From an uncultured Alphaproteobacteria bacterium (lineage in GTDB: Bacteria > Pseudomonadota > Alphaproteobacteria > Bin95), in NCBI GenBank assembly GCA_937891825.1, contig CALAHN010000060.1, positions 1 through 54,505 of the forward strand: a stretch of DNA of 54,505 bases, in the 5' to 3' direction. Of the stretch, positions 8 to 2,013 are shown piece after piece; positions within the stretch are counted from its first letter, which is position 1, and every line of letters starts with the position of its first letter. Both the position numbers and the translations under genes were made by a program. A model generated the notes under the pieces. That model was not told where the DNA came from. It worked only from the letters and a program-made list of their open reading frames with translations, and did no database searches.

Positions 8-892
8 TTATCCCGCCGCTCCAGTGGACGACTTTCTCACCGCCGTTCTCACACGGTGTTCCCGCCCTGCCTTCATGCGCGTGGCCGGCACCGTCCAGAG
101 CGCGGCATCCAGGTCGACCTCCGACCAGTCAGCCTCTAGCACCTCCGTCGTGCGCGCGGCGGTCAGGATCAGGAACTCCAGCGCTAGTTTGCTCGAAAGC
201 CCGATTGCCAGCTCAGGTAGGGTTTCTTGCAGGAAGGAAGGCACGGCGTCGTAGGCCATCGCGGCATGATGCTTACCGGTTCGCTCAGGTTGCTTGGGCA
301 GGCCGCGTGTGATGCCAGCGCAGGGGTTCTCGCCATCCCGGTGCCCAGCGGCGCGAGCCCAGTCCAGGACGGTCGAGATGCGCTGCCGGACGCGCCGAGC
401 CGTCTCAGGTTTGGTAAGCCAGATATCGCCCAATACCCTGAGCACATCCCCGCTCTCAATCTCGTTTACGCGCTTCTCTCCGATCAACGGGAAGACATAG
501 CGCTCCAAGGTGGAGATCCATTGCGCGCCGTGCTTTGCATTACGCCATGTTGGCTTCTGCGATTCATGTACACGGATCGCAGCCTCCCGGAAGGTCGGCG
601 CCGTCGCTTTCTCACTATTGCGCTCGGCAATCGGATCGCCGCCAGCGCGGGCGATCTTGCGCATGTGGGCGGCGACTTCGCGCGCTTCCGCTAATGGCAC
701 CATCGCCACACTGCCGAGGCCGATATCCTTGCGCACACCGCGGATAAGCAGGCGCAGCGTCCAACTCTTGGAGCCCGTGGGGCGCACATGCAGGTAAAGG
801 CCATTGCCGTCAGCGTACCGTCCCGGCTGCTTCGTATTCCGGACGCCTACCGCTGTCAGCGCATTCATTGGGTGCGCGCCGCTCTTCGCCAT
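8..892 (-). pseudogene. Truncated tyrosine-recombinase integrase next to tRNA-Ser
   Basis: Phage/island integrase with an N-terminal DUF4102-type arm-binding domain (GRYADGNGLYLHVRPTGSKSW, shared with P4-type integrases), a SAM-like core-binding domain, and the start of the catalytic domain with the first catalytic Arg (LTAARTTEVL). The ATG at 892 is preceded by GGGGGACGAG, so I use it rather than upstream ATGs that lie inside the tRNA. After the family-typical RMKAGREHRV the protein runs into 13 unrelated residues and stops. The later catalytic residues (H-x-x-R, H/W and Tyr) are absent, so it should be inactive for strand cleavage. Shifting by one base opens another frame that continues past the window edge. 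This could be a frameshift, or a junction with other DNA at about position 50. The position, reading away from the 3' end of tRNA-Ser, is the classic layout of a tRNA-integrated island lying to the left. Confidence 0.8.
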
Positions 893-1028
893 CTCGTCCC
901 CCAATCCGTACCACAATACATATGCGATGGGGTGAGACGCGATGCAATGCCCCGGAACCGCCTTTCGGCTGAAATCTGGGGATTTCTCGATGTTTTGAGA
1001 CGGCGAAAGATGGCTTGAAACTAGGTGA

Positions 1029-1118
1029 TGGCGGAGGGAGAGGGATTCGAACCCTCGAAGGAGTTGCCCCCTTAACGGTTTTCGAGACCGTCCCATTCAA
1101 CCACTCTGGCACCCCTCC
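1029..1118 (-). tRNA. tRNA-Ser (anticodon CGA)
   Basis: The minus strand reads GGAGGGG as acceptor 5' arm, then TGCCAGAGTGG. The anticodon stem ACGGT/ACCGT encloses loop CTCGAAA (anticodon CGA, reading UCG). A long class II variable arm (AAGGGGGCAACTCCTT) and the T-arm GAGGGTTCGAATCCCTC follow. The 3' acceptor strand TCCCTCC, discriminator G and an encoded CCA complete it. The large variable arm and G73 are serine identity features. Its 3' end faces the truncated integrase, so it is the probable attachment site of an integrated element. Confidence 0.96.
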
Positions 1119-1213: not shown

Positions 1214-1900
1214 CTATTCCGCCGCTCGCTGCAGCAAGGTCGCCGCATAGGTCTCGCGCCGGATCAGGTTGCCCTCGAACTCCGCCGGAAACACGTCCGC
1301 GACAGAGCCTTCGACGATCTCCGTCGCCAGAAGCGCCTCCGTCCAGGCCTTCACCTTCGGATAGCCGTCGATCAGGCCGGTCTTCAGGAGCGCGTCCGCC
1401 ATCAGGAAGCGTTGCAGGAAAGGCGTGTAGGCGCAATCGACCAGGCAAAGCCGGTCGCCGCCAAAGAACGGGCCGCCTGGCGCCTTGTCAGCCGCGAGCG
1501 CGCCTTCCAGCGTTTCAAGCGCGTCCCTGGCGTCTTCATGCGCCGCATCGGAGTCTGCCTTGGTCTTGGCGTAGTAGACCGCCGAGAGGCTGCTTGCGAA
1601 GTCAGGCGTAAAGTCGGTCCAGGCCCGGTGGCGGGCGCGGACAAGCGGATCTTCCGGGTGCAGGCGGGGCGCGATCGTCTCGTCCAGATATTCCGCGATT
1701 GCATTGCTTTCGAACAATGGCTGATCGTCGACCAGCAGCACGGGCACCTTGCCGTGCGGCGAGATCTTCATGAACCAGTCCGGGCGGTCGCGGAGGTTGA
1801 TATAGGTGGTCTCGAACGTGACCGACTTGGCGCGAAGGGCAATCACGGCCCTTTGCACCCAGGGTCAGGTGTAGGCGCTGATGAGATGCAGCTTGGGCAT
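1214..1900 (-). CDS. Glutathione S-transferase, putative selenoprotein (in-frame UGA at catalytic Cys)
   Basis: 228-residue GST with an N-terminal thioredoxin fold (PDWFMKISPHGKVPVLLVDD and the GSH-binding ESNAIAEYLDE) and an all-helical C-terminal domain. I start at the ATG at 1900, which has AGGGAGA six bases upstream. From there the frame reads MPKLHLISAYT, then TGA at 1865-1867, then PWVQRAVIALRAKS. Omega/beta-like GSTs have a catalytic Cys (C-P-[WFY]-x-Q-R) at exactly this place. A conventional annotation would begin at the GTG at 1858 and lose the first strand and active site. The frame is otherwise open to the end, which argues against a decayed gene. A strong stem-loop directly follows the UGA (see 1829-1859). 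I infer Sec at residue 12, using glutathione for conjugation, thiol transfer or reduction. The alternative is a recent nonsense mutation or sequencing error. The gene is monocistronic. Confidence 0.85.
1829..1859 (-). promoter_or_regulatory. Candidate bacterial SECIS hairpin in the GST mRNA
   Basis: Starting six bases after the UGA, GGUGC pairs with GCGCC (one G-U). After one A-C mismatch, AAGGGC pairs perfectly with GCCCUU, leaving a seven-base loop CGUGAUU. The loop begins at +18 from the UGA and has G as its second base. The published bacterial SECIS consensus is a small hairpin 16-37 nt after the UGA with a G in the first two loop bases, so this fits. The structure is seen directly; SelB binding is inferred. 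Confidence 0.65.
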
Positions 1901-2013
1901 CGGCGTCTCCCTTGGGGTTAAGGCGGCCAGTATACAGGAAAATCGCGGCGCTTGTGCGCGCCGCCCCGCCGCGCCAAGCTTTTCCCTTGTTCAGCAGAGA
2001 AGGAAGCCAAGCG

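Follow-up and report, generated by a model that had tools for sequence, protein, structure and literature searches.

A predicted selenocysteine-containing member of the glutathione S-transferase superfamily in an alphaproteobacterial genome

Selenoproteins resembling glutathione S-transferases (GSTs) have been predicted since 2005 from short marine reads, first as four sequences in Sargasso Sea data (Zhang et al. 2005, PMC1088965) and then as 12 selenocysteine-containing GST (Sec-GST) sequences in the GOS data (Zhang and Gladyshev 2008, PMC2398784). The first-pass annotation of the locus described here refers correctly to such predictions from marine metagenomes. GST-like selenoproteins were still an uncharacterised family in reviews of 2022 and 2026 (PMC9312934, PMC13188914), and the literature searched yielded neither biochemistry of these proteins nor enzymology of any natural Sec-GST.

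A GST-like gene with one in-frame UGA

The window, that is, the whole stretch of 54,505 nucleotides that was analysed, contains on its minus strand a gene of this type with the following features:

1214–1900, minus strand: predicted selenocysteine (Sec) GST-like gene encoding 228 residues, with Sec as residue 12, and ending in TAG
1907–1913, minus strand: Shine-Dalgarno-like AAGGGAG 5′ of the ATG, read directly in the sequence
1865–1867, minus strand: in-frame UGA, codon 12, predicted Sec codon at the catalytic Cys position
1829–1859, minus strand: putative bacterial SECIS hairpin within the coding sequence, with a stem of 5 bp + 6 bp, an A·C mismatch and a 7-nt loop
1841–1847, minus strand: apical loop of the putative SECIS, CGUGAUU, with G at the second position (GU)
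1844–1849, minus strand: codons 18–19, GCC-GTG, synonymously invariant in 20 of 20 Sec genes

The start ATG (1900–1898, minus strand) lies downstream of the AAGGGAG motif (1913–1907) and opens a frame of 229 codons, counting the UGA and the terminal stop, which reads M-PKLHLISAYT-UGA-PWVQRAVIALRAK... through to the TAG (1900–1214, minus strand). The UGA at 1867–1865 is the sole in-frame stop ahead of the TAG (1216–1214). On re-reading, the description given in the first-pass annotation (ATG at 1900 with a Shine-Dalgarno sequence, followed by MPKLHLISAYT-UGA-PWVQRAVIAL in an otherwise open frame) proved exact. Four Pfam models, GST_N_2, GST_N_3, GST_N and GST_C_2, exceed their cut-offs on the translation of the gene (E = 2.3e-18 for the PF13409 match), and the comparison with NCBIfam returned only matches below cut-off.

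Downstream of the Sec-GST gene lies a tRNA-Ser(CGA) (1118–1029) and, directly after it at the contig edge, the gene of a tyrosine integrase with Arm-DNA-bind_3 and Phage_int_M domains; the two together (11–1118, minus strand) look like the start of an element integrated at the tRNA, immediately next to the Sec-GST gene. Upstream and divergently oriented are a FAD-dependent oxidoreductase gene and then genes for an enoyl-CoA hydratase and a TauD-type dioxygenase. The pairing of the GST gene with tRNA-Ser is found in one further genome of this genus (at the related locus L019 the tRNA-Ser likewise lies just downstream), and no neighbour is common to all members of the Sec clade described below. 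In a subset of that clade only (L037:3697–4413 and L039:3356–4084), the gene 3′ of the Sec-GST, on the same strand, encodes a protein in which two stretches match the YCII domain and which might be its functional partner.

Sec and Cys forms among relatives, and the Sec machinery

Three sources supplied the relatives: 95 related genomes searched in six frames, GTDB contigs, which were scanned, and 385 genomes of the class searched with a profile. After duplicate removal they gave a comparison set of 20 distinct alphaproteobacterial Sec loci and 28 Cys homologues that were examined; the locus in G003 (L020) starts near a contig edge, lacks codons 1–15 and is uninformative on the UGA. All 20 Sec loci, from several genera and families, have TGA at the same codon in a frame otherwise open, followed by PWVQRAVI (GCCGTGAT). 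The 28 Cys homologues, the nearest of them at 50% identity or less, have TGC or TGT at this position, which bears out the earlier claim that the UGA falls on the catalytic Cys. The exchange between Cys and Sec across the UGA, which had been proposed as a check, is thus seen with distant homologues, and no Cys codon occurs inside the Sec clade. A single branch of the maximum-likelihood tree (support 96/97) sets the 20 Sec proteins apart from the rest, their nearest group is a Cys clade, and no Cys form lies among them; the natural reading is a change from Cys to Sec, in a tree whose root is not fixed.

This distribution bears on two other explanations of the gene. The UGA could be a nonsense mutation in a pseudogene, or a Cys or Trp codon miscalled through sequencing error, given that a single base change converts TGC to TGA and that the draft genome comprises 163 contigs, of which the window represents one. 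However, the same TGA recurs across the 20 distinct loci without any other in-frame stop, conservation continues past it, and the GCC-GTG codons are frozen (see below), so that we consider this explanation highly improbable; decay of the gene in close relatives, which the first-pass annotation had named as a refutation, is not seen, and these relatives keep the UGA. Alternatively, translation might begin at the GTG at 1858, the likely call of an automatic annotator, where an open frame does exist; the protein would then have 214 aa and lack the catalytic residue. Such a product would, judging from the structural model, lose strand β1 and the active site, and it would leave untranslated the upstream stretch MxKxHLISSxT that is kept across the family; a start at this GTG is improbable in the extreme.

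Sec decoding of the UGA would require a dedicated machinery, and selA, selB, selC (anticodon UCA) and selD, the genes that the first-pass annotation proposed to look for, are all present in the same genome (G000; 4.3 Mb, 163 contigs, 99.97% complete). SelB scores above its curated cut-off and the frame adjacent to it, directly upstream, is that of SelA, assigned from its translation. The selC gene reaches 71.5 bits with Rfam and is called as tRNA-Sec with anticodon UCA by ARAGORN, and SelD is also above cut-off (G000:C104:19770–20648). The SelD region (L053) sits within a 765-aa open frame and may be fused to another domain. A search of this genome for the Sec-type formate dehydrogenase (TIGR01553) gave nothing above cut-off and no internal stop, and therefore no second selenoprotein comes from formate dehydrogenase.

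Across genomes, selB was detected in 16 of the 19 with a Sec form as against 7 of the 35 with a Cys form (Fisher p = 7e-6, with relatedness ignored). The Sec-form genomes tested, save G024 and G398, have a tRNA-Sec scoring at least 64 bits, and most Cys-form genomes gave only serine-tRNA-level scores (about 42–51 bits) in the same search; G069 is a Cys-form genome that carries both selB and selC. The search for selB in Sec-form genomes found none in G024, which is 77% complete, in G399, which has selC, or in G398, without selB or a clear selC, the last two deriving from MAG records (L042 and L041, respectively); we read these three absences as probably due to missing sequence. In the sister genus (g2; G005, G007, G008, G009 and G011), selB is present and a close GST homologue was not found: there, the GST gene was lost or never present while Sec use persisted.

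RNA-level constraint downstream of the UGA

The hairpin in the window is built from a lower stem GGUGC/GCGCC and an upper stem AAGGGC/GCCCUU, its loop lying 17 nt from the UGA. The bacterial SECIS model (PMC13188914) specifies a loop of 3–9 nt, a stem of 4–16 bp, a G in the first two loop positions, a spacing of 16–37 nt and an MFE ≤ −7.5. Run computationally, the SECIS folding check suggested in the first-pass annotation shows that the window hairpin satisfies this model (loop 7, stem 6, G at position 2, spacing 17, −19.2 kcal/mol). The model is permissive, fitting 18 of the 20 Sec genes but also 14 of the 28 Cys genes.

Synonymous constraint was examined at the 43 codons that have synonymous freedom and whose encoded residue is conserved in 19 or more sequences. 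Only two of them never vary among the 20 Sec genes, and they are adjacent: codon 18 (Ala, GCC) and codon 19 (Val, GTG), the pair from which the window hairpin takes its apical loop. At the remaining conserved Val and Ala positions of these genes, mostly three or four codons are in use. Since 2 of the 28 Cys genes share CGCCGTGAT, the presence of GCC-GTG proves nothing by itself; the proof lies in its invariance. The freezing of codons 18–19 amounts to RNA-level selection for a SECIS.

The SECIS argument rests on this frozen loop and not on hairpin stability. Compared with synonymous-codon shuffles, the free energy of the hairpin is not lower overall in the family (mean z −0.2), and that of the window hairpin has a z of −2.3, with 3% of shuffles equally low. 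The strong hairpin at 1829–1859 with G second in the loop, as claimed at first pass, is real and at the right distance (17 nt), but its stability is weak evidence family-wide. Stem geometry varies by lineage, from 7-nt loops to loops of about 12 nt, the latter formed in several lineages by an alternative stem register (AGCGCGC/GCGUGCU). Since the stems of the 20 gap-free SECIS regions fall into two or more registers, RNAalifold recovered no notable shared helix; an Rfam scan of the region gave no match to a SECIS family, only chance-level matches.

It might still be that the UGA is decoded without Sec machinery, by recoding of UGA as Trp, generic readthrough or a suppressor tRNA, and readthrough of a conserved stop would likewise preserve the downstream frame. 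Nevertheless, SelB and neighbouring genes are open under table 11, distant homologues carry Cys and never Trp at the UGA position, the genome has the full selABCD set, and the frozen codons sit precisely where a SECIS loop is expected, all of which makes such decoding very improbable. With the frame intact, the Sec/Cys exchange position, the conservation, the Sec machinery, the RNA-level constraint and the GST fold (see below) established by computation, and Sec insertion itself inferred, we are nearly certain that the UGA at codon 12 encodes Sec and that the gene specifies a selenoprotein of the GST superfamily.

Active site, proposed chemistry and comparison with known systems

An AlphaFold2 model, with Cys in place of Sec, has a GST fold (pLDDT 92, pTM 0.88) in which residue 12 immediately precedes the helix formed by residues 13–24. 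The nearest solved folds are those of tau GSTs, with the plant enzyme 1gwc as the best overall match (TM 0.84, about 30% identity), and of human GSTO1; the nearest PDB sequences are thiol-dependent reductase 1 (TDR1), GSTO1, tau GSTs and DHAR1. The first-pass label "omega/beta-like" was only roughly right, the PDB sequence matches pointing to TDR1 and omega and the fold matches to tau and omega. In tau GSTs the catalytic residue is Ser. The protein combines a GST fold with a catalytic Cys, here Sec, N-terminal to helix 1, as is characteristic of omega GSTs and dehydroascorbate reductases (DHARs), enzymes with an established monothiol mechanism in which glutathione is the resolving thiol.

The active-site motif, U-P-W-V, has no resolving Cys three residues on and no CxxC-type partner, and its chemistry is therefore likely monothiol and omega/DHAR-like; among possible activities we favour that of a glutathione-dependent thioltransferase/reductase. 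In the mechanism that we propose, SelB would bind the hairpin just downstream of the codon 12 UGA and in this way deliver Sec-tRNA(UCA) to a ribosome at that codon; the product would be the full 228-residue protein, in which Sec is the N-cap residue of helix 1 in the thioredoxin-fold domain. The selenolate would then attack an oxidised or glutathionylated substrate, and a second GSH would resolve the resulting selenenyl-glutathione. More tentatively, and with somewhat less than an even chance of being right, these proteins may constitute a distinct, strictly Sec-dependent GST class of some alphaproteobacteria, forming one clade with a lineage-conserved SECIS loop GCCGUGAU and no Cys reversion seen, and catalysing some reaction, such as the reduction of peroxide, dehydroascorbate or quinone-glutathione, in which Cys versions are less effective.

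The locus is of value because the gene is well placed, in a near-complete genome that encodes the entire Sec pathway, because its 20-locus clade is cleanly separated from the Cys forms, and because its RNA signature is precise; together these features make Sec insertion and the benefit of selenium to a GST directly testable.

Compared with omega-class GSTs, DHARs and TDR1, the fold is alike and their catalytic Cys, just ahead of helix 1, is aligned with Sec12, but Sec replaces Cys and the similarity to any solved member is only distant in sequence. Semisynthetic seleno-GSTs with peroxidase activity, in which a GST scaffold becomes a selenium-type hydroperoxidase (PMC10812501), are laboratory constructs made from tau GSTs and not natural selenoproteins. 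The closest counterpart is the GST-like selenoprotein family, with which the gene shares a COG0625/PF13409 GST domain, Sec at the Cys position, no listed UxxC motif, a bacterial SECIS, an occurrence in marine prokaryotes and widespread Cys homologues; the comparison with this family, whose published examples include PPR62222.1 and MEK9676863.1, covers domain and Sec position. The gene is thus an unusually well supported further member of a family already predicted in 2005 and 2008. The published Sec-GSTs are metagenomic sequences, whereas this gene comes from a near-complete genome that also has selABCD and belongs to an alphaproteobacterial clade that is resolved; what is new here is this genome-resolved clade, the RNA-level signature and the omega-like monothiol active site.
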